64,000 nt of DNA, taken from positions 4,464,001 to 4,528,000 of the forward strand of contig JALGAS010000004.1 of NCBI GenBank assembly GCA_023078685.1, in the 5' to 3' direction. Positions 4,077-63,197 of the stretch are shown piece by piece (within the stretch, counting starts at the first letter, position 1; every line of letters starts with the position of its first letter). The DNA is from Neopestalotiopsis rosae. Taxonomy: Eukaryota; Ascomycota; Sordariomycetes; Amphisphaeriales; Sporocadaceae. The position numbers and the translations under genes are program-made. Under the pieces are notes generated by a model, which was not told where the DNA came from, did not search any database, and worked only from the letters and a program-made list of their open reading frames with translations.

Positions 4077-7000
4077 TCATGCGACCCAACGCTTGCCAGA
4101 AGACTTGGTCAAAACAGTGTCGCGCATCTGTGATCGACAGTTGGCCTTGTCGCAAGTGTTGTCAGACCAGCCGAGCTCGAGGTCATCTGCCCACCATGTT
4201 CGCTCCTCGTTGTCAACCTTGACGTCGACGAGCACCGATGAGAGACCCTTGAAGTTGTCGACAGAGACATGCTGCAGCTTGCAGTCCTTGGTTTGCCGAC
4301 ATGCAGGGATGTGAACAGTCTGTGAGAGTGCCTCCACTTCCTTCTGAGACTCGCTGTCAAAGGTCATGCCAGTAAAGGTGAAGTCACAGTCTGACTCTTC
4401 CGAGTCGCAGCCGACTTGTGCGCCAAAGAAGTCGAATGAGAAACAGTCATTGGCATGGCTGGGATCGTTGCCGAAACGTGCAGAATTGTCAGCTGGGGTG
4501 AACTGAAGCATGGTGTTTCCAGATGAGGGCTGGAAGCGACCCTCAGAAGATGCAGTCTGAAACTCAGATGCGAACCAGAATCGGTGGTACGGGCTGAGTA
4601 CAGAAACCGGGCCAGCAGCTCCAGACCGGGCAGCGAGAGACGAAAGATCATCCATCTGCAAAAGTTAGCAGAGCGCAATCAGGTACACATTGAAGATTGA
4701 CCAACCTTGAGGGTGAAGTTGCCCTTGTCAGCAACATTGCCGCATGCTTCTGCCTTTTGGCTGCCACCCCATTGGTAACCACCAGGCTGAGAAGCAGGAA
4801 CAACTGGAATGTCCGGATTAGTCTGACGTCGAACAGGAGCAGGTGTTGTTGACCCGAGATCAATGGTTGACGTTGGCCTCAAGGTAGCACACCATGTGAT
4901 CATGGAGCTGGCAATTAGAGTAGAGGTCAAGGAAGGACAGTCGGGAGGGATTGTGGTAGCCAGCGGTTCCACAGTTGGAGTCGATGGCACGACTGACGGC
5001 ACACCACCAGTGCTGGAGACCGTCATTGACATGGTGGCATTCCAACCACTCGACGGGACTGTGAACTGTGGAACGCGGGTCGACGAGGTATTCACGGGTG
5101 TAGGGCCAGATGTTTGAGTAGCAGAGGAGGAAGTTGTGCAAGGCGTTGACTCACCAGATGGATTGGGTCCTCCTGTCACAGGAACAGGAACGCCAGATGG
5201 CTCTGCGCCTGAAGGGTTGGATCCGGGGACAGTGATTGTCGGAGAAGATTCACCAGCGGGGTTCGAACCACCATTGGGATTGGGCCCTGCGGTGACAGTT
5301 ACAGGTGGAAGGACTCCAGTGGGTTGCTGGGCGTTAGTCTGAGAAGGGAAAATCGTGACCACTGAGCCTTCATCAGGGCAAGGCGTAGATCGACTACCTG
5401 GGTTGCCAGATCCATTGCCGGGGCCACCAGATCCATTGCCGGGACCGCCAGCTCCACTGCCTGGGCTGCCTGCACCGTTACCAGGGCTGCCGGAACTGTT
5501 GCCAGGGCTGCCTGATCCGTCACCGGGATTGCCACCTCCGTTGCTGGGTTGAGGACCAGTTCCGGGAGCAACTGTCACGACAGGAGTGTAAGGGGCGGAG
5601 GCAAGGACAGTTCGGGTCGAAGGGAGAATAGATGCTTGAGTGATGGTGATAAGCGGCGATGAGATTCCTTGGCCACCTGGACCGTTTGGACCAGAACCTG
5701 AGGCATTGGGACCAGAGCCGTTGGGACCAGAGCCATTGGGACCAGAGCCATTGGGACCAGAGCCATTGGAACCAGAACCATTGGGACCAGAACCTGAACC
5801 GTTTGGACCAGAACCAGAGCCATTGGGCCCAGTACCAGATCCAGAGCCATTCGGACCAGTACCAGGACCAGAACTGTTTGGATCCGAGCCGGAAGGACCC
5901 GAGCCAGCACCAGAGGGGCCAGAGCCAGCGCCAGAGGTACCAGAGCCAGAGCCAGCGCCAGAGGGACCTGAGCCGGAGCCAGAAGGACCTGAGCCAGAGC
6001 CAGAGGGACCTGAGCTGCCTGCAGGAGAGCTACCACCATAGCTTCCAGGAAGGCTGCCACTTCCACCCGCAGGAATAGTGACTGTGCTGGGGCCCGATGG
6101 GCCGGACTGACCTCCTTGACCGCCAGGGATGCCAGCACCAGGAACAGTGACGGGGACAGGAACTCCTGAAGCAGTAGGCTCAGCTCCAGCGGGAGGCACA
6201 GTAATGGTGATGGGACCTCCTGAACCATTGGGGCCGCTGCCATTGGGACCCGAGCCGGCGCCATTGGGATTGCCTGAACCGCCAGGACCATTAGGATCAT
6301 TGGGATTCCCCGAGCTACCAGGTCCATTCGGACCATTGGGACCTGAGCCGGCGCCACCGGGGCCGCTGGGACCGTTGGGATTGCCAGAGCCTCCAGGGCC
6401 ATTGGGACCGCTGCTGCCAGGACCACTGCTGCCAGGACCACTGCTGCCAGGACCACTGCTGCCAGGACCACTGCTGCCAGGACCACTGCTGCCAGGACCC
6501 GAGCCAACGCCAGAGCCATAGCCACCAGGGAGAGTTGGCTCAGACGAGGGAAGAGTGACTCCGGAAATACCTTGACCACCTGGGCCAATTGGAACGCCTG
6601 TGGTCGGATTGCTTGGGACAGTGATGGTGATGGGAGCGGAGGCACCTCCGTTAGGACCGTTGGGGCCATTTGGGCCATTTGGACCATTGCCCGAACCGCT
6701 AGGAAGACCGCTGCCACTGGGAACACTGGGAACCGTGATGGTGAAAGGACCTGAGCCGCTGCCACCTGGGCCATTGGAACCGTTGGGATTGCCAGAGCTG
6801 CCAGGGCCGTTAGGACCATTGGGATTCCCTGAGCTACCTGGGCTGCCGCCATAGCCGCCAGAAGGAGATGGGCCATTCATGGCGCCAGTGGAACTCTGTC
6901 CTGTAGCAGGAATGCCGGGGATGACGGTGGGAACTTGACCTCCCTGAGCACCAGGGCCACCAAGAGTGTTGGGAATAGTGACGGTGAGTGCACTGGGGAC

Positions 7001-8344
7001 TGTCATGGTGGATGTGCTGAAACCAGGATCATAAGGGCTGCTGCCAGAACCTCCATAGCCACCGAAAGGCGAGCTTTGGCTAGGCGATCCGCCCGGACTA
7101 CCATTGCTGCCGGGGTTGCTGAGGCCAGATGAAGAAGCAGGAATAGTGACGGTGACGGTGACTGGGACAGAGCTCAAACCTTGGCCACCAGGAGCGTTGG
7201 ATGGACCATTCCCTGCTCCGTTGCCACCAGGAATAGTGACGGTAGCAGTGTCAGTCTCGCATGGGGTGCTGGAGCTCGGGACACCTTGGCCACCAGGGTT
7301 ACCGATTGTGGGATTGCTGCCAGAGCCATTGCTGCCAGGATTCGAGCCAGTACCGCTGCCGGGGTTGCTGCCAGAGCCGTTGCCGCCGGGGTTGGGACCA
7401 TTGCCGTTGCTGGGGTTGCTGCCACAGCCGTTGACGCCTGGGCTGGGCCCTGAACCGGAACCGTTGTCAGGTCCGCCATTGCCGGAACCGTAGCTGCCGG
7501 GGTCATTGGGGTTGCTTCCAGAGCCAGAGCTACCAGGAACGCCGCCTTGGGGAGTGGTGACAGTGATAGTGACAGTAGGAAGACCTTGACCACCGGGGTT
7601 GCCGGCACCTGGTTGATTGGCAGGCTGAGTGACAGTTGGAGCAGGCTGACCAGCAACGGAGCCACCGGGAGAAGTGGATGGGACACCGTGGGGACTAGTA
7701 GCACCGTTGCCACCATTGTTGGACACAAGCGGAGTGATGATGGTGTATGTAATCATGGAGCCAACAGTCTGACCGCCAAGAGGGGGAAGGGACATGGTGA
7801 CGTAGTCCGTGGTGAGTTGGGCAGCGGTCGCAGAATGACCAGATCCGGGACTGCCAGCACCATTAGGACCGGCGCCAGAATCAGTCGAGCAGGGAATGGA
7901 GACAGTGTTGGACGGAGATGAACCAGCGCCAAAAGGAGATGGAGGGTATGGTCCGGTGTGAGGGAGTGAGCCGCCGAAGGGACCGTTGGGATCATATGGC
8001 AGATTCGAACCGTTGGGCCCAGCAGGAGAAGTGACTGTGACAGTAGCGAGTGCAGGAGGAGTAACAGTGACGAAGACCGTACTGGGTGGGACAATGGGAC
8101 ACGTGAGAACAACAGGAGAAACCGTCAAGGGAGAACCATTGCCAGGACCATTGGGAGAACCATTACCAGGACCATTGGGGGAACCGTTACCAGGACCACT
8201 GCCAGCAGGGCTGCTGCCAGGAGAAGATGATCCGCCATCACCAGGCTGACCTTGGCCAGAGGCTCCGGGATGACCATAGGACTGTGCTGATGCTCCAGAG
8301 AGCAGAGCAGCAAGTGCGAAGCCGCCAAAGGCGCCTGAACGCAT
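4077..8344 (-). CDS. Large secreted Gly/Ser/Asn/Pro-rich repeat protein with a Cys-containing C-terminal domain
   Basis: Two exons (8344-4706 and 4655-4077) separated by a 50-bp intron encode 1405 residues. Residues 1-20 form a clear signal peptide ending ALLSGASA. About 1100 residues of low complexity follow, built from PNGPGNGS-, SGPNGSG- and PGSSG-like repeats interrupted by TVTIP/TITVP strands. The last about 220 residues are a folded domain with several Cys, beginning near ACGNVADKGNFTLK. It resembles a domain of unknown function at the C-terminus of many fungal secreted proteins (possibly DUF7371; not verified). No C-terminal hydrophobic tail is seen, so GPI anchoring is unlikely. Probably a wall or matrix protein. 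DNA repeats in the coding part make copy number likely to vary between strains, and both antisense frames stay open because of the repeat composition. Confidence 0.85.
5700..5790. repeat. Coding minisatellite, 15-bp unit (SGPNG)
   Basis: Units like ggaccagagccattg occur about five times with single changes. On the minus strand they encode SGPNG, a second block of repeats in the same gene. Confidence 0.8.
6419..6496. repeat. Coding minisatellite, 15-bp unit, about six copies
   Basis: The unit ggaccactgctgcca is repeated about six times almost without change and encodes PGSSG on the minus strand. It lies within the large repeat protein gene. Confidence 0.9.
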
Positions 8345-10637
8345 GACTGCGAGGACAAGAGTGAAGGACGAGAGAGATTGACAGTGTCCAAGTGTGACGC
8401 AGTATGAAGGCTGAAGCAGGTTCTCTACTGGTGAGGAATGACAGAAACGAAGATGACTGAAGAGAGTGTAAGGTGAAAGGAGTGAAGGTTGAAGTTGGAA
8501 ATGTGAGATGGAAGAAAAGGAGAAGAGAAGAAAAGGGAGATGGGATGGGAATTATATTTCGGTCAGATGAGCAGAATTGGCATCCTCACGCCTGCCTGAA
8601 CTCAGCGTGCCTTCCTCTGCTTCTTGCTGGCGTTTCTGCAACTATGGACTGTGTTGGGGAGACGCGGGTGGATAGGTCATTAACGCGCCTTCCCCGACTA
8701 CATTTCGTTACGTCACTGGCTGCAGATATTCGAGACTGGCTGGGAAATTGGGCAGAAGGCATTGGCCTCGGGAATTTTGAAATCCTCCCAAGAGGAAAGA
8801 CAGAAGTTGACCAGATGACAAACACTGGAAGGAACATGCGCGGACAACAGATGGCTCTCCACTTTGAGGCCGCTGCTGCCCCAATTTCAATGTCCAAGTT
8901 TGGACAATGATGTTGGGGCTTCGTCAAGAGGACCGGAATTGGAATTTGTGATGTGAGAAGTTGGAAGCTACAGTCTCACACTCGTGAATATCTTTTCCAC
9001 TTGTTCAAGGATATGGTGTTTGGCATTGCAGCTTTTCTGACGCGAGTGTCGAGGCCAATAGAACAAAAGTTTGGCTTGCTGTAATAGAGTATGGAATGCA
9101 TCAGATCAGATGCCAATTTGGAAATTTTATGTACATGTGAGAAAGTTCGATTCAACTGCAAGCAAGTTTGACAATGTTGTGTATATGCAGTGCATTCGGG
9201 CAATAACAGCAGTATCTCTATCATGCACTCCTCCAAGAACCAATCAAAGCATACGCAAAGAGCTTGGTAATATATCATCGACTAAAGCAACTGCTGCTGA
9301 CGTCGAGCTTTGAGACTTTCCACATAACAATTCTCGGAAAGTGGCCTGCATGTGAAAGTGGAGGATGTAATCTGCTATGTCAATATCTCAACGTTGGGGG
9401 AGGTCCTCGAGCTCAATACAAACCGTAGGCAGGCACGCTTCAAAGTGCGGTTGCCCGATGGTACATTACACTGGTGCCGCAACACGAATGGGTGAGTCCC
9501 AACAGTTCACAGCGAACAGAAATCAAGAAGGCGCCCCTAGGCAACCAGTCTCTGATCAGCGCAGAAACACAAATAGTACGTCATACTATTTGGATGATGC
9601 GTGTACATCTTCACGTTCATCCCGGGCAAGACGTTGGGTTGAAGAAGTGCTCGACATTCTGTCCAAAGCTCCTGCTCTGTTCAGTGTACACGGCCAGAGT
9701 TGAGCGTGGTCGTAGTTACGAATTTCCAATCATGTCGTGATACCTATTCGATATGTGTGACCTGAAGAGTACATAATCGTGTATGCTTCGATAGGTTGAA
9801 TACGTCTATTTGATCTCTACCGTTGTTGACTGTCTTACGAGAATCCTGCGTCCTGCTTGTCTATTCTCTTTGCTTCGAGAGGCAAGAGAGCAACACGTTG
9901 GAGATGCCCCCCAAACACACTTGACACATCCACTGTAAGAAGAACTTGCACTAATATCGGTTTCCATTTTTGGTGTTGTGTGTGATGCCCTAACTAGATT
10001 GCATTGAGGTCAAATTGGACACGAGAATAAACATCTGCCGCTTCGAAATCGTCACGGCAGAGGATCATGTCGGTAGGCTCACGGAAGAGAGTACAACGAC
10101 AGGTGTGTGCCGTAGTTTCCAAGCACATTTCACTATGAGAGAAGACGATGACATCGTCCAGGAAGTGTGCCATCCGTAGTCAAGCACGGGACTGGCTTTC
10201 CTTTTATTGGATTTTCACTGTCGTACCCGCAGCCAACTATATCAGAACGGCTTCAGATCACACTTATGGCGATACGATCAGAGCTTGACATGAATGCGAC
10301 CATATATGTGAGAAAAGCAGCCAGATTGCCAGGACCCAACAGAAATAGGTATGACGAAGTCATCGGGACAATCCAGAGGTAGTTTCTAGACACATCTGTA
10401 TATGAACGGAAGGGTATAAGGCATCTTCAGTTCTTACCAGGTACCTAATAACGTCCCAAGTAACATGAATTCGATTTGCATAGATGCAGACCTCAGAAAT
10501 GCGAGTACTTTAAGCCAATGCCGGGAGCTACGTCAGGCTAAGATCTCTTGATCTAGAGAAATGGTATTGCAAGAACATGAGGAAACACAGTGTCTAGTGA
10601 AGAACCTGTCTACCTACGGTATCTCTAATTTAGCACT
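8345..10637. other. Intergenic region, no gene seen
   Basis: About 2.3 kb. The first about 200 bp are purine-rich on the plus strand (CT-rich in the sense of the gene at 8344), as is usual for a 5' UTR or promoter of a well-expressed fungal gene. The rest has only short open frames with no recognisable motif. Confidence 0.5.
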
Positions 10638-42504: not shown

Positions 42505-44309
42505 ATGGCTCAAGAGACTTGCGCAGCGGGCAAAATTGAAATGGATGAGCAAATTGCACAACCCGTGCTTCGTTGCCTTCAGTGCAACAAGCCGTTTGAC
42601 AAACGTAAGTGCCTTCTCCATGGCGCGCTACTAGGCGGACCCGCCCAGTCTATAACCATGTCGCAAACTCACAGTATGATGCGCTAGAATCCACGCTGAA
42701 GCGGCATGGGTACTACTGTCGCCAGAAAAGGTCGAGTGACTCGAGCCCCGTCACTCGGCCTCGCTCTTGTGTAGCATGCGCAAAGAGGAAAAGGCAATGC
42801 GACAATAAACGTCCCCAGTGCTCAAGGTGTTCAAAGGATGACGTCGGCTGCCACTATCCCACAGCAGCACTATCAAAGACTACAAGAGTGCCGAGAAATC
42901 AGCATGGAGGCGATACGCAGCTAGTGGCCGAAGAGACTACTCTGGAAGCGCAATCCACCAGCATCAATACATTCGGGGACGCACTGCAAGTTACAAACGA
43001 TAACACAAATTTGGCCAGTTTTGAAGGACTGCAGTTTGACTGGAATAATCTGGACATTGATCTCGACAGTTTCCTGCTTCCGCAAAACAACGGCATGGAC
43101 GTTTTTCCAACACCTAGACAAAAGTCGCCATATCTAAGCTCCATCTCACTGCCTCCAGCTAGCCCAATCCCTCTGCCGCGACAACTCATGCCGCCTTCAG
43201 CAATCCCGGTATCGCCCACCAATTCACCTCGGTCTTTGGTCCGCAAAATGAACGCCAGACCAGGCGCACCACGAGCTGCAAACATGGTATTGCACATGAT
43301 GAAATCCTATTCTGTCATGATGTTGCAGCAAAACAATCTTCCCCCTTTCATCCACCCTCAGATGTTTTCCTTCAACGATGATAAGGATATGGAGCCACTA
43401 TATAATTGCATCAGTCTAATGCACATGATTGGGCGGAGCCTTCCTGGAAGTCGGGCTCTGTTCTGGAGAAATGTACGAATGGAATGTGAGCGGATGCAAA
43501 ATAATGTAAGCGAACCTGAACCTGAAGTAGTACATCTCGTTCCGATGACTAACACTTGCACTTGAAGCATCGATCAATGAACAGCTGGGAGGCGCTTGCA
43601 TCTTTGCAGGCTCTTTTGATATATACTGTCGTCAGAGTCGACGAAGGCGAGACTGAGTATAACAATCTGGACTCCTTAATACAAAGTTCCATCATTGTGA
43701 GTTTCGAGGAGTTCGAGTCCTTCGTATCCGCGACGATGACCAGGCTAACATCTTCGCACAGGCTGTCGCGAACACCTTTAATAAGGGCAATCAAAACTCG
43801 CACAAATCTCCCGCCGAGTCTGGACCAAGCACGGCCTGGAAAGACTGGGTATTCCAGGAATCAAGTAGAAGGTGAGACGAGAACAAATATCCCAGGTAAA
43901 TTTCCAAAGTTGTAGTCGCTCACTATTTTTCAGATTATGTACCGTCTTCCAAGTAATGAACATGCTCGTCTGGTTCGAGCCAGCCGGCATGTGCGACATG
44001 CACTTTGATCTCCTGCTAGCTCCCCTGCCGTCCAAGAAGCAGCTGTGGGAAGCCGACACCGAGTTTGCCTGGAAGGCCGACGGCTTGCTGGAGATGGATC
44101 AGCGCGTTGCCTTTGGCTTGGCGGCCGACGGTGAGCTGGTCAGGATTGAGAATGGCGGCTGCGACACCCGTTGCGAGCACCATATCATGATGACGCGGGA
44201 TCCCCATGGCAATATTGCTACAAAGACACCAGCCAATTGGGAAGACTGGTGCTCGGAAATGGATAATCTGGGAAATCTCGTCATGCTCGCCGCGTCCTTG
44301 ATCGGCTAG
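42505..44309 (+). CDS. C2H2 plus Zn2Cys6 transcription factor, likely cluster regulator
   Basis: Five exons fit: 42505-42604, 42688-43505, 43568-43696, 43762-43871 and 43934-44309, giving 510 residues. Exon 1 has the first half of a C2H2 finger (LRCLQCNKPFDK); the 83-bp intron ends at a TAG so that exon 2 continues STLKRHGYYCR, completing the finger. A Zn2Cys6 cluster follows at once (CVACAKRKRQCDNKRPQC..CSKDDVGC). This tandem arrangement is common in regulators of fungal metabolite clusters. The C-terminal part (VMNMLVWFEPAGMCD...) has no recognised domain. The ATG at 42541 is an alternative start. It likely acts in the nucleus on genes to its right. Confidence 0.84.
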
Positions 44310-44662: not shown

Positions 44663-46014
44663 ATGGGTGAAACGAACAAGAAAGGCGTAGTGGTAAGTTC
44701 TAGCGCCAGCTCTATGAACTACAGCATAATCGCGGCGACCATTCTTCCCAACAGCTTACTCGATCACAGGTCGGTGGATCAATCGCGGGTCTCATGGCAG
44801 CTGTCGTCCTCCGCCACGCCGGATACTCGGTAACCGTGCTAGAGCGCATCGTCGAGGCCGAGTTCCTGGACCGTGGCTCGGGACTGGGGATTAGGGCCGA
44901 GGTGTCGGAATTCTTTGACCTCTACGGCCAATCGGACGCGTACTTGAAGACGGCGCTCGGCGGAGCTTTCATGACCGTCATGAAACAGGATGGGTCGGTT
45001 GACGGCAAGGTCCCGTTGGCGAATCGAACGAAGACGAGCAGCTGGAGCTCGCTCATGGGTAGTCTGCAGGCTTTGTTCAATGATCTCGATAAGGGAAGCG
45101 GGGAGATTCTCTACGGGACCAAACTCGTCGATATCAAAGAGCATAAATCCACAAAGACTGTCACGGTAGTTTATGAGACTGCCCAGGGATCACAGACCAT
45201 TTCAGACGTTAGCATCGTCGTCGGAGCCGATGGATCCAACAGCACCGTCCGGACTCTGATGATGGGACCCGTCCCAAGCACTCAAGCAGGGTATGTCTGC
45301 ATCCGCGCGCGCTGTCTCGGAGACGTGCTTGACAGTGACTTCACCGAACTTTACCACGACTCGGCCATGACCCAAGTCAATGGTGGCATAAGTCTTACTT
45401 CGTATCTCATTCCAAGCAAGAACAGCGGGGCCGGAGGCAAGCCCGATTTGCTGATTGCTTACTACACGCACATGACGCCGGAGGCAGTCAAGGAGCACTT
45501 TCTTGGTATAGACGGTCACCAGTACTCGCACAGTCTCCCAGCGGGACAGCTGCGACCTCATTTGCTCGAGCTCTTGAGAGATCGATTGCGAGGAGTGCTG
45601 TGTCCTCAATTCCAGAAGGTCATTGACGCAGTTCCACCTAAAGCCGTACTGATACAGGCCGTATCGGACTTAAAAGCAGGACAGAACATTTTCCTAGACG
45701 GAAAAGTCATACTCTTGGGTGAGGCACATACAGTCACCCGGCCGCACACATTCAGAGCTACCGCTTCGGCTGCTTTTCAGGCTATACTTCTCACACCTGT
45801 ATTGGATGGCAGGGGTCAAATACAAGATTGGAGTAAGACTTGCTTGGAGTATACCGACCTTCTTAGCAAGGAGGCGATACACATTGGGGAGATATTGATT
45901 GGTGAAAACGATTTTGAAGGGGTGGCAGCGTGGAATGCCCAGAATCAAATTATGACAAAGACTGATGAGATGTGTAAGCACATCAAAGAGAAAGCAAAGA
46001 CGTGGACACAGTAG
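44663..46014 (+). CDS. FAD-dependent monooxygenase
   Basis: Two exons (44663-44692, 44770-46014) encode 424 residues. The dinucleotide fold starts right across the intron: KKGVV then VGGSIAGLMAA, the GxGxxG-type loop, followed by VTVLERI with the acidic end of strand 2. IVVGADGSNSTVR is the DG motif of class A flavoprotein hydroxylases, and VILLGEAHTVTRPHT takes the place of the GD motif, with Glu where Asp is usual. These enzymes hydroxylate or epoxidise substrates with NAD(P)H and O2. The first exon is only 10 codons. Neighbours suggest tailoring of the cluster product. Confidence 0.87.
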
Positions 46015-46301: not shown

Positions 46302-47981
46302 TCAGTACAAGGAAATTCTGCAGCCGTGGGCATTCTTGACTGTCAATGCCCACTGACCAGCCCAGTCTCGGTCATCCCGGCTCTCAATTCTGCTGAATCG
46401 CTGAGCAAATCTGACCACTACAAGAGCTGCTTCCATCATAGCTTTCTCTTGACCTGGACAGCGACGGGGTCCGTTGCCGAAGGGCAAATATTCCCAGGGA
46501 CCTGGTTTGATGATGTCCCACCGATCAGGACGGAAGGCTTCCACATCGTCGCCAAATACTTCTGCATCTCGATGCAAACCATAGAACAATGTTATGATTC
46601 GAGAATTCTTGGGAACAAAAACTGGGGCTAGTCCATCAGGTCCGCCTCCTCGAGGTAAAGCTGTGTCCTGAAGTGAAGTTCGGCCAGATGTGGCAAAGAT
46701 GGGATATATGCGTAGACCTTTGAAATCTGTTAGTCGTGATGGCTCTTGTGATAAATAGCTGGCAACTACTTACTCTCTTTCAGAATGTTCTGTACTAAAG
46801 TATTGTTCTCTAGCGCCTCCAAAGTGATGTCGTTCAAGCTCTCAACCTCCGTCCGTAGACGTTCCCAAATATCCGTGTGACGCGATAGTAAGAACATCGT
46901 ATTTGTTACCAGGCTCGATGTTGTTTCCTGCATACACATGATAGATTGAAGCAGCTGCGATCGGATCAGATGTCTGTTGCCAGTAGAGCCTGCGAGCATG
47001 CCCGCCATTCCTAGATGGCTGAGTCCAGGCTTGGTGCACTTCTCGAACTCTGACGCTTCTACACCTTGATGAAGCTTCTGTTCGAGGGCCAGATCTATGT
47101 AGAAATCGAGAAAAGAGTGTACGGATTGGCAATTGCGGTTGAACCCTGGACTTGGAAGGTTCCGCCCGATTACCCCGAAGAAGACTCGCACGATCAGCCA
47201 GTTCATAGCACCATGAAAGGCGTCAAGGAAGTGTGTAGAGTCCACTGGGGGCTGCTTTTCTTCAGACTTCACGATATCCCGTAGTCTTCGGCCCAAGAGG
47301 AATTCTCCACCCATATCAAGAAACTGGGTATATCTTCTTAGTAATGGCTAAAGATCAGGCTTGGAGGACACATACGAATTCATAGAATAGCGGCGCTAGG
47401 TCTATGGTCACACCGGACTCATCATTCTCGTCTAGGAACTGATCTAAAGCCTGACCAAACGATGAAAGAGAAGCGCTGCAATCGCTGTTGAAAACTGGCT
47501 TTGTGACTTCGCGTAAGGCACTCCAATCTTGCCCGTCTGTTGTGATCAAGCCTTTCCCGCAAAATGGATCAAGAGCGTCTGCTCTAGCTGGCGCAACACC
47601 CCAATCATGCCAATTGGTCTCGTATACGGCCTTGAAGTTTGCTGGGTCGACAGTATGGAAGACATTCTGAGCGACGGAGTTCACTAGATATGTTTTGCCT
47701 AGTGTGATATGACGTTCTGCAAGTGCTGGAAGATTGCAGTGCCGGTGTATCATTTTGGCAGTTTTGATCAGCAGATCTGTTCCCAGCAAAGGCTCCACGT
47801 GAGGGTATTTTCGAACGGGTTGGCAACCAGGATATGCAATTTCTACGACAGCTTGTCGCCGCTTCAGGTCCTGCTTCTTCCAATGAGCAAGTATCAGGCA
47901 CAAGCCCGCAATGACAACGAAGTAGACAAGCATCTTTGCAAATGGCCAAATCATAGATCTGTCTGAATAGAGCATTATCAT
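46302..47981 (-). CDS. Cytochrome P450 (cluster P450 A)
   Basis: Three exons (47981-47376, 47323-46774, 46717-46302) give 523 residues. An N-terminal anchor (MLVYFVVIAGLCLILAHW) is followed by PLLGTD, GKGLITTDGQDW, the I-helix region MCMQETTSSL, the K-helix ExxR formed across an intron (KE then SLRIYP), FRPDRWD, and the heme loop PFGNGPRRCPG with its Cys ligand. ER-bound monooxygenase; substrate unknown. The last exon is 416 nt, the same as in the P450 at 54216, and both last introns split the ExxR motif in phase 1, so the two are paralogues. Confidence 0.88.
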
Positions 47982-49398: not shown

Positions 49399-51121
49399 AT
49401 GGAAGTAAATCAGGTTGAAGCGGTTGTGAATAGACCGAGGGGAAAGCTGTCCTGGTTTCTCGTCGTTGTCTCCCTGATTTCCTCCATGTTTCTGTTTGCA
49501 CTCGACAACACAATTGTTGCCAACGTTCAGCCTAGTATAATTAAATCCTTGGGAGACGTCGACTTGTTGCCATGGGTTTCTGTATCTTACCCGTTGGGCG
49601 TTGTTGGACTCAATCTGCTCCAGTGAGTTGGGCCGCTCTTTGAGAAGCGCGATTCACGCAGCACTAATGACAACAGGACAAATATTTTCATGTTGTTTGA
49701 CAACAAGATCCTCTACATTGGCAGCGTCATTATCTTCGAGATCGGATCAGCAGTTTGCGGAGCTGCGCCAAACATGGCCGCATTGATTGTAGGCAGACTC
49801 ATTTGCGGCCTTGGTGGTTGTGGCATCTACGTCGGAGCCATGAACCTACTATCCTTCATGACAACTGAAGTAGAGCGGCCAAAGTACCTGAGTCTTGTTG
49901 GACTGACTTGGGGAGTCGGAACGGTGTGCGTACAGTCCTTTTCATGATTCAGTGATTATTTCCAGCGACTAACTGCCAAGTAGCACCGGTCCACTTATTG
50001 GGGCAGCCTTTACTGAGTCATCGGCAACTTGGAGATGGTGTTTCTACATCAACCTCTGCGTGGGCTGTGTGGTAGCACCTGCCCATCTTTTCCTCTTGCC
50101 TTCGCAAAATACCGCTTTCGAAGGAGCAATCATGTCGCGTTTGCGCGGCCTTGACTGGGTTGGTGCGATCGTAAATTGTGGTGCGATCATATCCTTGACT
50201 ATGGCCATTTCATTTGGAGGGGGACTATACCCATGGTCTTCAGGTCAGATAATCGGACTCTTCGTTTGCTCTGGCGTTTTATGGGTGGCGTTTTTCGTGC
50301 AGCAAACATTCTCCCTGCTTACGCCCAAGGAACGCCGCATCTTTCCGACCAAGTACCTCAAGTCTCGGGACATGATCCTCCTCTTTGGCTCTGTCATGTG
50401 CGCAGCCACGGTTGTGTATATCCCACTATACTTCATCCCATTGTATTTCCAGTTTGCTTGGAATGATACCTCCTTGCAGTCAGCAGTCCGTCTTCTTCCA
50501 CTTGTCTGCTTCCAAGTATTTGGAGTCATACTTTCCGGTGCGTTGATGAATAAGGTTGGATACTATTTCCCATGGTATCTCGCTGGCGGTATTTTCTCCC
50601 TCATCGGCGGTGTCCTACTCCATCTGGTTGATCTCGAGACTCGGGCTGCTCTCATCTACGGCTACAGCATATTAGTAGGGTTCGGCTCTGGTCTCTACGT
50701 TCAGACGGGTTATGCAGTATCACAACTGCTAGTGTCTGCTGAAGAGATTCCCAAGACCGTTGCATTCATAGGATATGGCCATATTTCTGGTGTCACGATG
50801 GCCTTGACAATTGGTGGCAGCGTTTTCCTCAACCAAGCCACTGACGGAATTGCTCAAGTACTCCCATCTACTCCAAGAACGTTGCTGCAACAGGCCATCA
50901 CCGGAGCCGGAGGTGGCTTCTTCGAGACCATTCCCGATGAAAAACGCGATGTTGTGTTGGGTGTGATTGCCAAAAGTATTGGCAACGTGTACGGAATTGT
51001 CATTTTTGCCGCGAGTATGAGCATTATTTTATCACTTTTCATGAGACGAAGAAGACTCGATTTTAGTCCAGCAGCACCAACTCCGGACACATCAGTGGAC
51101 ACAGGCAAAGAGAGTGTCTGA
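49399..51121 (+). CDS. MFS exporter, 14-TM drug:H+ antiporter (DHA2) type
   Basis: Three exons (49399-49622, 49677-49925, 49984-51121) encode 536 residues. TM1 ends in FLFALDNTIVANVQPSI, the D1-type motif of the DHA families; LIVGRLICGLGGCG and GTVTGPLIGAAF (motif C, formed across intron 2) mark it as an antiporter, and the remaining hydrophobic segments fit 14 TMs. Such proteins in the plasma membrane export toxic or secondary metabolites and often protect the producer. Its place inside the cluster fits export of the product. Introns are 54 and 58 bp. Confidence 0.88.
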
Positions 51122-54215: not shown

Positions 54216-55809
54216 CTAGGAGACTGACACTTTACATCCGTTGGCACTTTTGCAAGTCATTTTCAGCTCCCCTTTCCAAGGTCGTGGATCTTCCGACTTG
54301 AGGGTTGCGATCGACTGAGAAAGCCGGGCGAGAACATACGACGCTTCAATGACGGCCTTCTGCTGACCGAGGCATGCACGATTTCCGCCGCCGAAACCGA
54401 GAAACTCCCATTGTGCCGGCTTGATGTGGTCCCAGCGCTCAGGCTTGAAGGTCTCGATATCCTCGCCGAAAACCTCTTGGTCGCGGTGGAGAGCATAGTA
54501 ACTCATCACTACCATTGATCCCTTTGGTACAAAGACTGGGCGGTCATGCTCTGGCCCACCACCTGTTGGGAGTGTGACATCACGTAAAGCTACACGGCCT
54601 AAAAGCGCGAAAATGGGGTAAAGTCTCAGGGCTGCTCGGGAGAATTAGCATGTGTACAAAATCTTGACACCATGTGCACTCACTCTCATGCAATATGTTT
54701 GCGATCAGCTTGGACTGTGTCAGATTCTCCGCGGACAGTGCGGCCTCGGGCTTGTCGAGAAATTCATTGCGAAGTTGCTGCCAGTATTGAGGGTGACGCG
54801 CCAAAAGAAATAGCGCATTTGTGAGGAGTTCCGAGGTAGTATCCTGCGCTGCCATCATTGCCTGAATGACTTGACTACGGATGTAGGCTTGGTCGTCAGT
54901 TTGTGCCGAAAGTCCTTGTATCAGACTTTTGCTTTTCAGAGACTTTTGCTCCGCTTGGCCAATACAATAATCCAGAAAGCTGTGGGCTGTGGCGCAGGTT
55001 TTGATATAACCACCTTGTGGCAATATACTCCAGGCTCCTCCAAGCATGACTTTGAACATACTGTAAACTAGAGCTTTGTGAAAATATTCAACGAATTCAT
55101 TCGCAGTCAAAGGAGCACCATTTGATTGATCAGAAGGATGGAAGCCTAACACAAAATACAATGCTGAGTTGAGGAACTTGAACGAAAGTTTTAGTAACAG
55201 GACGGTCCAAAATGAGCTTGAGACACGATACATACCGTGACGTAGAGCAAAGGCTGTAGGTCTACTGCAGTACCATCTTTGGGCAGTGTTTCGATCAACT
55301 TGTCGACCTCTTCTTGGAGGATAGAAAGATCCTTGATGTTGTTGAAATCAAACGATGGCTTCAGCAATTTCCGAGAGTGGCTCCAAGTGTCGCCATCAGT
55401 AGTGATGAAGCCCTTTCCGCAGAAGTATTCCATTCCAGGGAGTCGCATAGGTTCCACACCGAAGTCCTTCGATGTGTTGATAGCTCGGATATTGTCCGGG
55501 CTAATTGTGCAAATCGTAGGAAGCGATGAAGCCCAGCCGTAAGACTGGTATGTATGTCCGTGTTGCTGGTGAAGCTGATTGTCCGGGCTACAAATCGTAG
55601 GAAAGAATGGGATTTCCGTGTTGCTGGTGAACATTCTCATTTGGTACAATTTGGAAGTCAAAACCAAACAAGGGCTCCTTGGAATGGTGTGTGACTGCGG
55701 GCTCACACCCATAACTTTTGATGGTCGCATTCTTCTGGGAACGGCGATGGTGAAGCCAAAACCCGAGTGAAACGAGCCCAGCAAAAGCGGAATAGACGAG
55801 ATAACCCAT
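54216..55809 (-). CDS. Cytochrome P450 (cluster P450 B), with internal duplication; possibly a pseudogene
   Basis: Clear exons are 55176-54684 and 54631-54216: I-helix MMAAQDTTSEL, ExxR formed across the intron (HE then TLRLYP), FKPERWD, heme loop GFGGGNRACLG. The first part (55809-55236) starts MGYLVYSAFAGLVSLGFW (membrane anchor) and reaches PLFGFDFQ, but then a partial tandem duplication (55491-55573 and 55578-55631) brings a stop and a frame change. Removing 55647-55575 as a 73-bp intron (GTACCA..CAG) restores the frame (167 codons for the first part) and all downstream motifs; the product would be 469 residues and about 15 residues shorter than P450 A in this area. Either a novel intron or a recent loss-of-function change. 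Confidence 0.75.
55491..55631. repeat. Partial tandem duplication inside P450 B
   Basis: The blocks attgtccgggcta, caaatcgtagga and tccgtgttgctggtgaa occur in the same order at 55491-55573 and at 55578-55631. The second copy lacks about 30 bp of the middle. On the coding strand the repeated words are HQQHG and the PTI/SPDN segment. Confidence 0.9.
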
Positions 55810-56498
55810 TGTCGTGGCGGTAACACTGGAGAGTTGGAATACCAGTTCGATTGACCTTGATGATGGTTCATGGATCAAAGCAGTGTTTGGGGGATGTGAG
55901 AGGGCAAGAAGAAATCTGGTCTCCAAATTCGAGAGCCTCAACTCTTCTGAGGTAGGGGTCAAAAGTCCCAGGCTGGAAACTTCTCGGCACGATGCTACTT
56001 GGGTACAGAACATAGGCGGTACTTACATAGGTACATTATACGAACTAGGTAGGTCCGTTAGAGATATGCCCCGCAGCCCGCTATTGCCGCCCGTGTGACG
56101 CTGCGACGCATGAATCCGCCCCAGGGCTGCAGGTGCACCAACTAAGCACCAACAAAGCACCCGCAGCCCCCACATTGCAGCAGATGTGCCCCTCTTCACT
56201 AGATATAGAACGATAACTGTCTACACTTTTAAATGCACTGTGTGTATTCTATTAGTGTATTTCGCAAGGGTGCAGGTTGCCTGGAATGTGCCAACGAAAT
56301 GAAATGTTCGTTGTTTTGATAAGTCTCAATCACATTGGATGACTGAAGTAACCTACCTACCTACCTCGTTCAGTGATTAGTCCGGATATAACAATCTGGC
56401 GTGCCACCTGGTGTAGATTGAGATTAGTGTTATAGAACAAAGAAAAAACACCGAACCTCGTGTCTTGATCGGGTGTCCTTGCACCAAACCTGTACACC
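55810..56498. promoter_or_regulatory. Divergent promoter between P450 B and P450 C
   Basis: 689 bp with TACC runs (56350-56366) and no protein-like frame. Confidence 0.45.
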
Positions 56499-58304
56499 AT
56501 GGCTCTACTGTCAATTTTACTTGGTTGCGTCGCTTCCTACATCGTTCTGAAATATGTTCTGAGGCTGTTTTGGCCACGCGTTTGGGGCCTCCCTGGGCCC
56601 ATTTGGGGACGTTTGTCTGGCCTTTATCGCATATGGCTCCTGAGCGACGGCAGAGGCCCCGTTCACTATGCCGAATTGCACAGGAAGTACGGACCTGTGG
56701 TGCTTACCGGTCCGAAACATGTCTCAATATCGGATTTCGCGATGATACCTGTCATCTATGACGCCAAAAATGCATTCATCAAGGTCGGTGGTCTACCTGC
56801 AGCTCATGCGTCTCAACCTAGTACTGATCGCGAGAAAAGAGCGAGTTTTACAACGTTTTCCGTCCCCTGTTTCGAGGCCAGCCAATGGACACAGTGTTCA
56901 CGACTGCAGACGTTGCACACAACAAGAGGCTAAAGGCTACTCTCGTGAAGAGCCTCACCGGCTCCCCGCTGATTCTCCAGCCGGAGATACAAAAAAGCAT
57001 AGACATTTTTGTTGAGCAAATGTACATCTCCCAGGGTCAGTCTATTGACTTGTCTTATTGGTCATTCTACTGGTCTTTTGACATTACGTTTGCGCTTGTT
57101 TTTGGAGAGTTTTATGGGTATATGAAGACCCGGAATGATTGCAACAGGTGGATCTATACTTTCAAAACCATCACGGGCGGGGCTGCTATACTAGGTCAAA
57201 AGCCTGAATGGTGCTCGTGGACGCTTGCTAATGACTCTGTGATGAGTCTTATGCGCCGCTTCCAGAGCTTCCCGGACCCTACGCAAGAGTTTCTTCAGGT
57301 GCGTCCGTTCTTGTACACAGAGGAGGGAACTTCATGAATCTCAAACTAACGTGTGGTAGGAAGTGGAAAATCGGATTCGATCCCATGACGCCAGTAACCA
57401 TGAGTGTGGCAAGACGTTCATTTGCAAAGTGCTGGCGGATCGGAAAGATCACAACGATTTCAACGAGTATGCGGAGGCGGTGAATATACTCTTCGAGACC
57501 TTGTTAGTGCTCACTAATAATTCCCTGCCTCCATCTCATCGATTTCCGCTTTGAACCATGCAACTGATAGATACCTTTCCAGCTTTGCGGCGGCTGCAGA
57601 AGTAGCTGTGACCTTGGGGACGGTATTCTACTGCTTGCTCAAGAATCAAACGGCGTACGATAAGCTTGTAGCTCAATTGCGTAGCACATCTCATGGTGAT
57701 GGGAACCCCGACATAAACACGTGGAGAAATCCTTATTTGTGAGTTATACTTGTGCTTCACTGCCTGATATATAATACAATCCAGTGACTCATTTGTTGGC
57801 TTGGCCAGGTATGCGATCATCAAGGAATCACTAAGACTGTACTCCTCTAATTCTCCTCCCATGGAACGAATTGTACCTGAGAACCGCATTCGTGTCAGTG
57901 GCCACTTCATTCCGGCAGGGACAATTATCAGCGTGCCACAGTATGCAGCGCATCGGGATCCAGAGGTTTACGGTAGTGATGCAGATGTATTTCGTGCAGA
58001 ACGGTGGCTTGAAGCCGACGAACAGAAGTCGCGGCTCATGGACCGAAATTTCCTCGCGGTATGTCAGGCCATGCACTACAGAAGATTTCATGATTCGCTC
58101 ACAATTTCCCAGTTTGGCCGTGGCACACGTGCCTGCGTCGGCCGTGACTTGGCATCATTACAACTTCGCATGCTCTTGGCCGACACACTAAAGAATTTTG
58201 ATATTCGGTTCGCTAACGCAAAGGTCCAGCCGAAGATAACTATGTTTTGGATGCTAGATCATGTTGGACTGGATGGCATCTTCACTCCCGTTGGCAATAC
58301 ATGA
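56499..58304 (+). CDS. Cytochrome P450 (cluster P450 C)
   Basis: Six exons (56499-56783, 56840-57298, 57360-57502, 57571-57738, 57809-58058, 58113-58304) fit and give 498 residues. The anchor MALLSILLGCVASYIVLKYV is followed by LPGPIWGRLSG and RKYGPVV, TADVAHNKRLK, YAIIKESLRLYS (K helix), ERIVPENRIRVSGHFIP, AERW and, formed across the last intron, FLA|FGRGTRACVGR with the heme Cys. In the I helix the stretch SSFAAAAEVAVTL carries Val where the oxygen-activating Thr is expected. The first donor, GTCGGT, is unusual. Closer to pisatin-demethylase-like P450s than to P450 A and B. ER membrane; substrate unknown. Confidence 0.85.
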
Positions 58305-59076
58305 TGATGGCGTGTCCATTTTCTTAGGTGGAAGGGATTTTCTTGTACCTCACATAGGTCGTACTTCTATTTGATAGAATTATTCCAAACTCGAGGTGTT
58401 TCGATCTGGAACGACTTCGAAAGTATAGCAAACGAGACGTTGCAAATAATTACTCAGTCATCGCGTCGCTAGAGAGACAAGTTAAACAAGATGCATGTAT
58501 ATTCCTAGCAACCTCTGGGAGATAGGCACATAGTACTCGATTTGAATTCTTTTATCAATCTTAGATGGGCCAGCAGATTGATTGACATTTTCATATTTCA
58601 GAATAAACATTAGTCCAATATTGGTGCACAGAGAGTCTTCAAAATCGGTCACAACATTTTTGACTAGGAAAGCATGATACATAGAGCTGAGTTCAGTTAA
58701 AGCTCATTGGCGTATATATCGATATGAGAATTTGGCTTTGATGTCGATGCTGAAAGGAAAGTCCATCCACTTAATTTGTGACAACATTGTCTCGACCTGT
58801 GAATAGTCAACAATGATCGGTGGGCGAGAAGGTAATACTGTAACATACTTCGTCTACATCGAATGATAGAAAAGATAGATCACAGAGGGACTCTACGCAG
58901 TAGGGCCTACTCTACATGGGTTTCAAGAACTTTTGCGTGCTCATATGGTCATGATTGGATTGGTTATGGCTAATTTCCTCGAAGTGAACCAAAGTACTCC
59001 CACTAAATCCTCTCCATCCTCCGCGATCGAAGTGAAATATTTCTGGGCATGGTGAGACCCTGCAGAACTCTTTCGC
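58305..59076. other. Convergent spacer between P450 C and the small repeat-peptide gene
   Basis: About 770 bp holding the 3' ends of two facing genes. A 66-codon minus-strand frame (58482-58682) has a KR dipeptide but no signal peptide and is not called. Confidence 0.4.
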
Positions 59077-59301
59077 TCAGCCTGACTCTGCGTAAAGGCC
59101 AGCATCTGGGTAGCGGATATCATCGTCGCGATCTGGGTAGCGGATCTGCTCATCGTTGTCGTGGCGGACAAGCAAGTCACCGTTGGAATCTGATCGAATA
59201 AGAACGATGTGGTGATTCTAGAGCAAGGGATACTTACCTCCTGCTGGGAGAGCCCAGGCGAGAACGCCAAAGGTGGCAGCGAGTAGGATGGATAGACGCA
59301 T
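59077..59301 (-). CDS. Small secreted repeat peptide, candidate RiPP precursor
   Basis: Two exons (59301-59238 and 59189-59077) joined across a 48-bp intron (GTAAGT..CAG) encode 58 residues. Residues 1-20 (MRLSILLAATFGVLAWALPA) are a signal peptide. The remaining part is acidic and contains IRYPD twice at a 9-residue spacing, each after two to three acidic or Gln residues; VRHD just before looks like a third, worn unit. Two 15-bp exact DNA repeats 27 bp apart underlie it. The start context (AAAAATG) is good. Position next to UstYa-like genes, a secretory leader and a Tyr-containing repeated core are the marks of dikaritin-type RiPP precursors. Against it: no Lys-Arg between repeats, only two clear copies. 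A small effector-like peptide is the alternative. Confidence 0.62.
59104..59145. repeat. 27-bp-period tandem repeat encoding the IRYPD units
   Basis: atctgggtagcggat is found at 59104-59118 and, unchanged, at 59131-59145; the 12 bp between encode acidic residues. Confidence 0.9.
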
Positions 59302-60023
59302 TTTTAGAATGATGGCTATGCGTTGTGTGTTTTAGGGCTGACTTGGAAATATTAAGAAAGAAGAAAGTAGAGTGTTTGAGCAACTATGAATTTTTGTCTT
59401 CTCGTAGTTGATCCATAGCTGCAATCTCTGTATATAAATACTCTGGGGTAGGAGTGCGGGGCTTGGCCACTTCTGGTTGGAAAAGAATTGTCAAAAATCT
59501 CACACAATCACAGTGCATAGTCCTAGATCATCATGTAGCCATGTACCTCTGTTGACCGATCGAACGGCTTCTCAGGGTAGTGTCCCCCATGCAATGGGGC
59601 GATGATCGTCGATGATCTGTAAAACAATAATATGCAACAAAGGGGCCGTAATCTTGGCCAATCAACGTCCAGCATCGGTTATGCAATCCTACGTTACACG
59701 GAATGACCCATCACCAACTATACAGATGCATGGGACTTTGCCGCTACCGTGGCCAAGAGGTAAATGGGTCGCGTCCTCGATCTGGCCATCCTTGGAGCTG
59801 TTGTTCCGTTGACTGTCCGTTGACTAGGGCCCCAGAGAACCAAACTCGCACAGGCTGCATATGGATGCCCACACAACTTGACCCAACAAGATAGCTTGAC
59901 TTCACACTACTGCCATCATCTTCTTTTGGTGCAAATCCTCTTAGTTCTGAGCAAAAACCCAAGACCATCACTGTTGCTCTTCCCCAGATTCTTCTGATAC
60001 GTTTGTGAAGGCTTTTAAGCAAC
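59302..60023. promoter_or_regulatory. Divergent promoter between the small peptide gene and the first UstYa-like gene
   Basis: 722 bp. A TATA-like stretch (gtatataaatac) is near 59430, about 130 bp from the small gene's ATG. A ccgttgact word occurs twice near 59804-59825. Shared control of the two genes is plausible. Confidence 0.5.
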
Positions 60024-60983
60024 ATGTATCAACAAACAAACGACAGCTACGAGAAATTGCCGTTCATCAAAGATGATACAGGAGAGTCCCGTGAATCTGG
60101 AGAACAGATCAATGGCTTTATTCGTTTCTGGAATAGACTCTCAGTGAGGATGAAAATTTCAATTCACCTTTTCATGGTGCTACTGAATGTTTCGCTATTC
60201 TTGGTCATGATACACTCCCAATTCCAAGGTCCAGTGCATCCGAATAATGGTATGTCACAGACCGGCCGTAACTCATGGCTCACATTGCTAATTGAAGTAC
60301 ACCAGCTTTACGGAACATGAAACTTCAATGGAGGCCTACTATGAGCATCACGGCTGGCATGAGTCCTTATGCTGGTGGCGCAGAGGACGCGATTGATGAT
60401 GCCTGGCATGAGCTTATGGGCAATATCAGCATCAGAGTTGGTCAGGATGAACTCAACCAAAATGGCAATCACCAGACTTCTGTCGAACTTCCGGATGGTG
60501 GCGGACACTTAGCGTGGCTAGGTGTTTTTCACCAGCTTCACTGTCTTGTAGGTGTTGCCCATATGACGTCTACTGCTTTGGAATGCTGACCGATGGTAAA
60601 GAAAATGTTACGACAACTGAATTACAGAGATGAATATTATCCAAATCAGACAGCAGACGAAGCTAGAGATCTGGAAGTTCACATGAGTAAGTCTTTCGGC
60701 ACACCAGTCACTATTGATTCCTTGTTTCTTAGTCTGACCACCGAGATTTACAGACCATTGCATCGAAAACTTAAGACAGTCGGTTATGTGCTATCCTGAC
60801 ACATCCTTCACGACTTTCGTTTGGACACATAGAGACCCTAAGCCTGTACTAGACGTTCGGAGATTTGAGAGAAAATGTGTAGACTGGGAGCATTTCATGG
60901 GAGAGGTAACCCCTCGGGTGGTCAGTTTCGAAGAGGTCGACGACTTGGTCAATCCCATACTTGATAGTAGTATTTCAGATTAG
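60024..60983 (+). CDS. UstYa-like oxidase (DUF3328), copy 1
   Basis: Four exons (60024-60249, 60306-60547, 60602-60686, 60754-60983) give 260 residues. A TM is at about 47-67 (ISIHLFMVLLNVSLFLVMI). The luminal part has DDAWHELMGNISI and the first HxxHC motif, HQLHC; the second, HMNHC, is created by the last splice, followed by IENLRQSVMCYPDTSFTTF. The paired motifs are the signature of the UstYa family, which carries out oxidative cyclisation or related oxidations in fungal RiPP and some NRPS pathways. Likely in the ER or Golgi lumen, as the precursor is secretory. Divergent to the small peptide gene. Confidence 0.87.
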
Positions 60984-62509: not shown

Positions 62510-63197
62510 ATGCGATTTTCGTCAAGTCCTTTGTTCACATATTCGCGGCTGCCAGCTCAAGAATCTTCCGACAGTCGTCGGCAGCCGAAATCATGGGCAA
62601 AGTCTACATACTATGTGACAATAGCCTTTTCCATCGTGGTTCTGATGTCTGGATCAATTGCACTATACCGAGGGATTTTCTCCAAACCTCCTACTTTTCA
62701 AGCACTCAGATCTATCTCGAGAACATTCCGCTATGATCGCAATTTCTCGTACCCTCCGGATGAAATCACGAATGGAGCTTGGGATAGTCTTTTCCCCGAT
62801 AATGGCGGATTCTTTTCCCATCCTCCAGAAATCACATCTCGTGTAACAATCTCTGTTTTCCATCAGCTTCACTGCCTCGTGAGTTACGCTTCAGTACCGT
62901 ACTGCATGATAATGTCATCACTCACGCGAATTATAGGACGCAATTCGTCGATCGTATTGGTCGGTCTACGATGCAGCCATGGAAGGCCGGTGCATGACGG
63001 AGCAAGATTTCCCAGAAATGACATCCCCATCACATGTGCGACATTGCGTGGACTTGCTGCGTCAAACTCTTATGTGTTATGGAGACACGACAATAGAGAC
63101 AAAAGATGGTGATAGAGGCGTAAGCGGATTTGGCGTACAACACGAATGTCAGGATTATGGGCAACTAGTTGAGCTCATCAGTGCGTGGCAACGATGA
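62510..63197 (+). CDS. UstYa-like oxidase (DUF3328), copy 3
   Basis: Two exons (62510-62878, 62937-63197; 58-bp intron) encode 209 residues. TM at about 35-55 (YVTIAFSIVVLMSGSIALY); NGAWDSLFPDNGGFFSHP; first motif HQLHC at the end of exon 1, and HVRHCVDLLRQTLMCYGDT in exon 2, the second. The shared intron site right after HQLHC(L) links it to copy 1. The ending GFGVQHECQDYGQL is like GFGLKHKCVVWDDV in copy 2, so copies 2 and 3 also share the C-terminus. ER/Golgi-type membrane oxidase by family. Confidence 0.88.

Follow-up and report, generated by a model that had tools for sequence, protein, structure and literature searches.

A conserved secreted peptide gene beside three UstYa-family genes in Neopestalotiopsis rosae: probable precursor of a ribosomal peptide of a new type beside the dikaritins

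The window, by which is meant the whole 64,000-nucleotide stretch of Neopestalotiopsis rosae DNA that was analysed (C12:4464001-4528000, in a genome of 53.8 Mb in 17 contigs), carries on its minus strand at 59301-59077 a two-exon gene for a 58-residue predicted secreted peptide, MRLSILLAATFGVLAWALPAGDSNGDLLVRHDNDEQIRYPDRDDDIRYPDAGLYAESG. Three genes of the UstYa family, UstYa1 to UstYa3, all lie within 4 kb of it, and the nearest of them, UstYa1, is transcribed divergently 722 bp away and shares its promoter region. The parts of the peptide gene, referred to here as the candidate precursor, and the three neighbours are as follows.

59301-59238, minus strand: precursor exon 1, encoding the predicted signal peptide (MRLSILLAATFGVLAWA) and the start of a spacer (from reading of the sequence)
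59237-59190, minus strand: predicted phase 1 intron of 48 nt, GTAAGT...CAG (P0001 and P0007 are of the same spliced length, 58)
59189-59077, minus strand: precursor exon 2, encoding the spacer and the conserved C-terminal block, in which two IRYPD units are followed by GLYAESG (from reading and conservation)
59302-60023, no strand: divergent intergenic region of 722 bp between the precursor and UstYa1 (from coordinates)
60024-60983, plus strand: UstYa1, 260 aa, four exons (60024-60249, 60306-60547, 60602-60686, 60754-60983); PF11807, 139.9 bits
61156-61904, minus strand: UstYa2, 231 aa, two exons (61904-61667, 61613-61156); PF11807, 83.8 bits
62510-63197, plus strand: UstYa3, 209 aa, two exons (62510-62878, 62937-63197); PF11807, 85.2 bits

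The signal peptide of the precursor was predicted by eye and with a hydrophobicity rule, and its AWALP-type c-region is seen in full-length homologues as well. The 48-nt intron would presumably be spliced in vivo, and the block encoded by the second exon reads DNDEQ-IRYPD-RDDD-IRYPD-AGLYAESG. A first-pass annotation of this DNA had pointed to the signal peptide, the intron, the two IRYPD units at a spacing of nine residues and the exact 15-bp repeats beneath them, all of which are present, and had left the strand (minus) unstated; it overlooked GLYAESG, the third Tyr-containing motif, and did not remark that the C-terminal block is conserved as a whole. Within its 225 nt the gene has no exact direct repeat longer than 15 nt, a length reached by none of 2000 dinucleotide shuffles, while a repeated 5-mer in the 38 residues that follow the signal peptide arose in 24 of 20000 shuffles. 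The homologues are far stronger evidence for a gene than these repeat statistics. The notion that the open frame and its repeat both arose by chance draws on the small size of the gene and on a second frame that overlaps it (58941-59303, minus strand), which is also open over 120 codons and is probably itself a product of chance, but it is contradicted by conservation at the protein level, with relatives down to an E value of 9.6e-21 and an annotated 58-residue protein (P0007) among them, and is extremely improbable. Judged by this conservation, the gene is genuine and its predicted product is a conserved small secreted peptide. No second copy was found in the genome, where nothing matched except the two exons of the gene itself.

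In a database of 5.77 billion proteins, five relatives were recovered at E values up to 1 among six candidates, the best at 9.6e-21, and a profile search extended these to 17 proteins at E values up to 10 among 5164 candidates. The C-terminal block is complete to its end in 13 of these (P0001-P0013) and is kept in part in P0014 and P0015, which are divergent or degenerate; P0016 seems more degenerate still, and P0017 was rejected as a chance match to a protein of another kind. P0007 is the annotated protein of Byssothecium circinans (Dothideomycetes); JGI, ENA and Logan data supplied the other relatives. The family is represented in one Sordariomycete, one Dothideomycete and environmental data. 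Viral contigs gave 21 pattern matches, none confirmed as a precursor relative. One of 22 pattern matches in prokaryote genomes was confirmed by tblastn over the candidate stretches (L014, Sporolactobacillus, 17 residues, E 4e-5), and this was taken as chance because the search pattern itself forces most of the match. No solved structure matched the peptide at E values up to 10. The open-access main texts searched (supplementary tables and subscription papers lie outside this scope) contain nothing on the precursor sequence: YPDRDED and GLYAESG are absent from them, DRDEDI occurs only in works unrelated by title, and those with IRYPD concern, by title, insects, venoms or immunology.

Conservation is concentrated at the C-terminus. 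Against P0001-P0004, 27-28 of the last 29 residues are identical versus 11-15 of the preceding 29 columns, and the fragment P0005 is identical at 28 of the last 29 residues versus one of the eight before them. To judge from the protein letters, unspliced gene calls that run on through an intron may account for part of the N-terminal divergence: P0002, P0004, P0006 and P0009 contain inserts about as long as a short intron and spacer together, and these begin with GM or RM at the very point at which translation would continue through a phase 1 GTATG donor. P0001 and P0007 match the spliced length of the precursor exactly, the insert in P0003 is too short for such read-through, and P0010-P0012 are short frames with possibly false starts. 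A leader that is kept while the repeats are lost, the pattern that the first-pass annotation had set against its own proposal, is the opposite of what was observed, since it is the C-terminal block that is conserved above the N-terminus.

The variation within the block was tabulated by position over 12 rows (the precursor and 11 relatives, 10 distinct), leaving out P0005 and P0008 as fragments or copies, P0014-P0016 as divergent or degenerate, and P0017. The family consensus is DxDxx-IxYPD-RDED-IxYPD-xGLYAExG, with D32, D34, P40, D41, R42, D43, D45, I46, Y48, P49, D50, G52, Y54, A55, E56 and G58 invariant in all rows. The first Ile is replaced by Val in one row and the first Tyr by Trp in another (P0012). 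Over positions 37-58 entropy is highest at position 47, followed by 38, the positions that separate Ile from Tyr in unit 2 (R, T, E or V) and in unit 1 (R or V), respectively; positions 31, 33, 35 and 36, ahead of unit 1, are variable too. In addition, every row (12 of 12) has K or R at a distance of 0 to 3 residues ahead of the block, the basic site being RR in P0006 and KR in P0010 and P0013, and no row (0/12) has a dibasic pair within the block. The Ile-x-Tyr-Pro-Asp unit thus behaves like a core, in that x varies and the other four residues change rarely or never, as would be expected of cores set between recognition sequences. The core cannot yet be assigned to IRYPD, as had been claimed, because RDED and GLYAExG are equally conserved, and the whole conserved block may be the product.

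The claim that UstYa-family genes adjoin the peptide gene was borne out, with all three passing the PF11807 cut-off and each encoding two HxxHC motifs (HxxHC(x)nHxxHC) and one N-terminal hydrophobic helix. In CctR this pair of motifs was shown to be a two-copper site, and the catalytic part was proposed to lie in the lumen of an organelle (PMC12435403). The only solved structure matched by UstYa1 was an allergen at an E value of 0.99, which was disregarded. UstYa2 differs at one of 231 positions from Neopestalotiopsis clavispora G7054_g4416 (P0018), and a search with its exon found 21 matches with E values of 1e-10 or below among 34 candidates; Glonium, Astrocystis, Periconia, Pleomassaria, Zopfia and Parastagonospora are represented in them and Byssothecium is not. 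The relatives with longer matches (P0019-P0033, 51 to 70% identity) have a patchy spread over Pleosporales, Glonium and Astrocystis, much like that of the precursor family. When co-localisation elsewhere was sought by comparing the lengths of the longest contigs, none of the 21 UstYa2 matches agreed with a precursor relative (15 compared); this is a weak test because it covered UstYa2 alone of the three UstYa genes and because many of the sources seem to split intron-bearing genes. Any pairing of precursor and UstYa genes beyond the Neopestalotiopsis genome is conjectural.

These observations bear on whether the peptide is modified at all. It might be an unmodified secreted peptide, of a signalling or effector-like kind, whose block is freed at the basic residue while the UstYa genes serve something else, which would suit the conservation of the whole block rather than of the repeat alone, the flanks being as fixed as IxYPD, as well as the failure of the 21 UstYa2 matches to reveal co-localisation in other genomes. 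Against this stand the three closely spaced UstYa genes, one of them sharing a promoter region with the precursor, and the position of the variable residue, which in both units falls exactly between a fixed Ile and a fixed Tyr. In the published survey of PMC7329392, moreover, Tyr is found in 65.6% of the repeats of precursors accompanied by DUF3328 genes versus 38.2% of those of the others, and pheromone precursors are reported as almost never having DUF3328 neighbours. We consider a plain secreted peptide unlikely.

On the other side of the precursor from the UstYa genes lie several genes that could belong to the same cluster, together with a rhodopsin-like exon.

56499-58304, plus strand: P450-B, possible tailoring enzyme (two exons over the PF00067 cut-off; ends set by eye from raw frames)
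54219-55874, minus strand: P450-A, possible tailoring enzyme, N-terminal part perhaps damaged (three pieces over the PF00067 cut-off)
49627-51121, plus strand: MFS transporter pieces, possible exporter and candidate cluster member (domain matches)
46305-47347, minus strand: third P450, candidate cluster member (one piece over the cut-off, one just below)
44704-46014, plus strand: FAD-binding monooxygenase-like frame, candidate cluster member (domain match)
42609-43565, plus strand: Zn2Cys6 regulator-like frame, candidate cluster member (domain match)

Pieces of both MFS and ABC transporters occur near the precursor. In the raw frames, the break in P450-A coincides with a 20-nt repeat (19/20 identical, spacing 58) at 55554-55631, and the gene may be damaged there or may contain an unusual intron. 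About 2.4 kb past the end of the window there is an open frame of 943 codons (L010 433-3264, minus strand) with no Pfam or NCBIfam match. The nearest match on the contig is 419 kb away for a tyrosinase and 2.05 Mb away for an S41 peptidase, and no methyltransferase was matched beside the precursor among the frames scanned, which gave a sub-threshold TRM5/TYW2-like match at 31.4 kb.

The P450, FAD and MFS genes would also suit chemistry of another kind, in which the UstYa genes belong to a pathway with a non-ribosomal substrate and the peptide gene is their neighbour by chance. UstYa-family proteins are described as active in non-ribosomal pathways too, such as that of cyclochlorotine (PMC12435403), and protein searches found UstYa2 relatives in fungi in which no precursor relative was found. 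This is countered by the distance of the nearest matches on the contig, 3.5 Mb for an NRPS condensation domain and 1.3 Mb for a PKS ketosynthase domain, in a search that covered, for pathways of this kind, these two domain families, and a chance neighbourhood is accordingly judged quite improbable. Service of the UstYa genes to an NRPS or a PKS was rejected on the same lack of a nearby condensation or ketosynthase domain.

Precursors of similar kind were sought with a rule that asks for a signal peptide and a repeated 5-mer, with no intron or one. In the 5 kb around the precursor this returned the precursor gene alone. A small background of 79 kb without UstYa genes (window positions 1-59000, L010 and L011) gave two overlapping matches, both in a single low-complexity stretch near 6 kb; the frame behind them is repetitive (5577-6300, minus strand), and a 1290-codon frame (4679-8551, minus strand) is open there too. 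Stretches of 10 kb at other UstYa loci, 20 of them, taking in part of the 78 UstYa matches in the genome, contained candidate precursors with KR-flanked repeats in four cases.

L017 at 3194 (minus strand), L018 at 2161 (minus strand), L023 at 7420 (plus strand), L025 at 3533 (plus strand): small secreted KEP-type candidates with KR-flanked repeats beside other UstYa genes (from the scan)

In two of these four genes, as in the precursor, an intron was read directly behind the signal peptide. The contrast between four of 20 UstYa stretches and one low-complexity place in 79 kb lends support to a precursor role for the gene studied here, and the KR-flanked candidates indicate that the genome holds ordinary repeat precursors as well, the studied one being of another build.

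Taken together, the evidence favours a gene for the ribosomal precursor of a RiPP modified by UstYa enzymes, of a new type beside the dikaritins, and to this reading we give a probability of roughly two in three. It draws on the conservation of the block, the fixed flanks around a variable x, the basic residue ahead of the block in every row, the three UstYa genes, and the absence of condensation and ketosynthase domains within 1.3 Mb. Against it weigh the failure of the contig-length comparison to place any UstYa2 match with a precursor relative, flanks that are as fixed as IxYPD itself, the Trp in place of the first Tyr in P0012, the divergence of P0014 and P0015, and the remoteness of tyrosinase and S41 peptidase. 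The dikaritin-type precursor that had originally been claimed therefore stands in part: the conserved secreted peptide, the UstYa genes and the lack of condensation or ketosynthase domains agree with it, while the build is not the usual one, as the two repeats are not separated by a dibasic site and neither a tyrosinase nor an S41 peptidase is near.

The proposed pathway would begin with the signal peptide directing the precursor into the ER, where UstYa-type copper oxidases, membrane-anchored and facing the lumen, would recognise the fixed acidic (DRDED) and GLYAExG sequences. Their targets would be the Ile-x-Tyr-Pro-Asp units, in which oxidation would most likely couple the ring of Tyr to the side chain of Ile. 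Cleavage at the basic residue just ahead of the conserved block would remove the leader, and further changes might come from P450 or FAD enzymes before export. The order of the residues, reversed relative to ustiloxin and phomopsin, is observed, and a Tyr-Ile link formed in that order is hypothetical. In a bolder form of the proposal, which is possible and at present doubtful, the whole block of 27-28 residues would be the mature product, with Tyr oxidised at as many as three sites, to which the three UstYa enzymes might correspond one to one, and with rings on Ile-x-Tyr-Pro in the order opposite to that of ustiloxin and phomopsin.

DUF3328/UstYa clusters whose precursor was not recognised are on record, such as the lichen clans R1 and R2 (PMC12048977), and repeats flanked by dibasic sites are what the large published survey searches for (PMC7329392). 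The precursor family described here is of a type that the dibasic-repeat rule skips, and its signature, IxYPDRDEDIxYPDxGLYAExG, with fixed flanks and one variable residue per unit, provides a tool for finding more. With this family one could also ask directly whether UstYa enzymes are able to link Ile and Tyr in reverse order. If the whole block were indeed the product, there would be a class of fungal UstYa-made peptides that are freed in one piece and are invisible to mining for Kex2 repeats.

Dikaritins are described as being made from KEPs (PMC10512285), which are recognised by at least three tandem repeats of at least eight residues between KR, KK, RK or RR sites (PMC7329392). The studied precursor is like the KEPs in its signal peptide and short repeats, and it falls outside this rule with its two units and a block free of dibasic pairs, so the published Kex2-repeat rule would miss it. 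Among the dikaritin features taken from PMC12048977 and PMC10512285, a predicted signal peptide, repeated motifs (only two, at a nine-residue spacing) and three nearby UstYa/DUF3328 genes are present, and a tyrosinase in the cluster is absent. Although it would function in the manner of a dikaritin precursor, its place outside the KEP rule has it filed as a new variant beside the dikaritins and not as a member. With ustiloxin and phomopsin it shares a secretory precursor, short Tyr-containing repeats and adjoining UstYa-family genes, and with the YVIP core (PMC7329392) a Tyr and an Ile two apart, a variable residue between them and Pro next. It departs from them in having Ile-x-Tyr-Pro where they have Tyr-x-Ile-Pro (PMC7329392), no KR between its two units, no tyrosinase within 419 kb and no S41 peptidase within 2 Mb. 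The asperipin-2a cluster, reported as four genes for precursor, UstYa homologue, transporter and reductase, likewise has a UstYa homologue without a tyrosinase (PMC6514808), whereas the present locus has three UstYa genes, P450 genes beside them and another core sequence. The lichen clans resemble it in having a precursor outside the repeat rule, and unlike those clans, for which no repeat precursor is recognised in PMC12048977, the precursor here is visible and has relatives.
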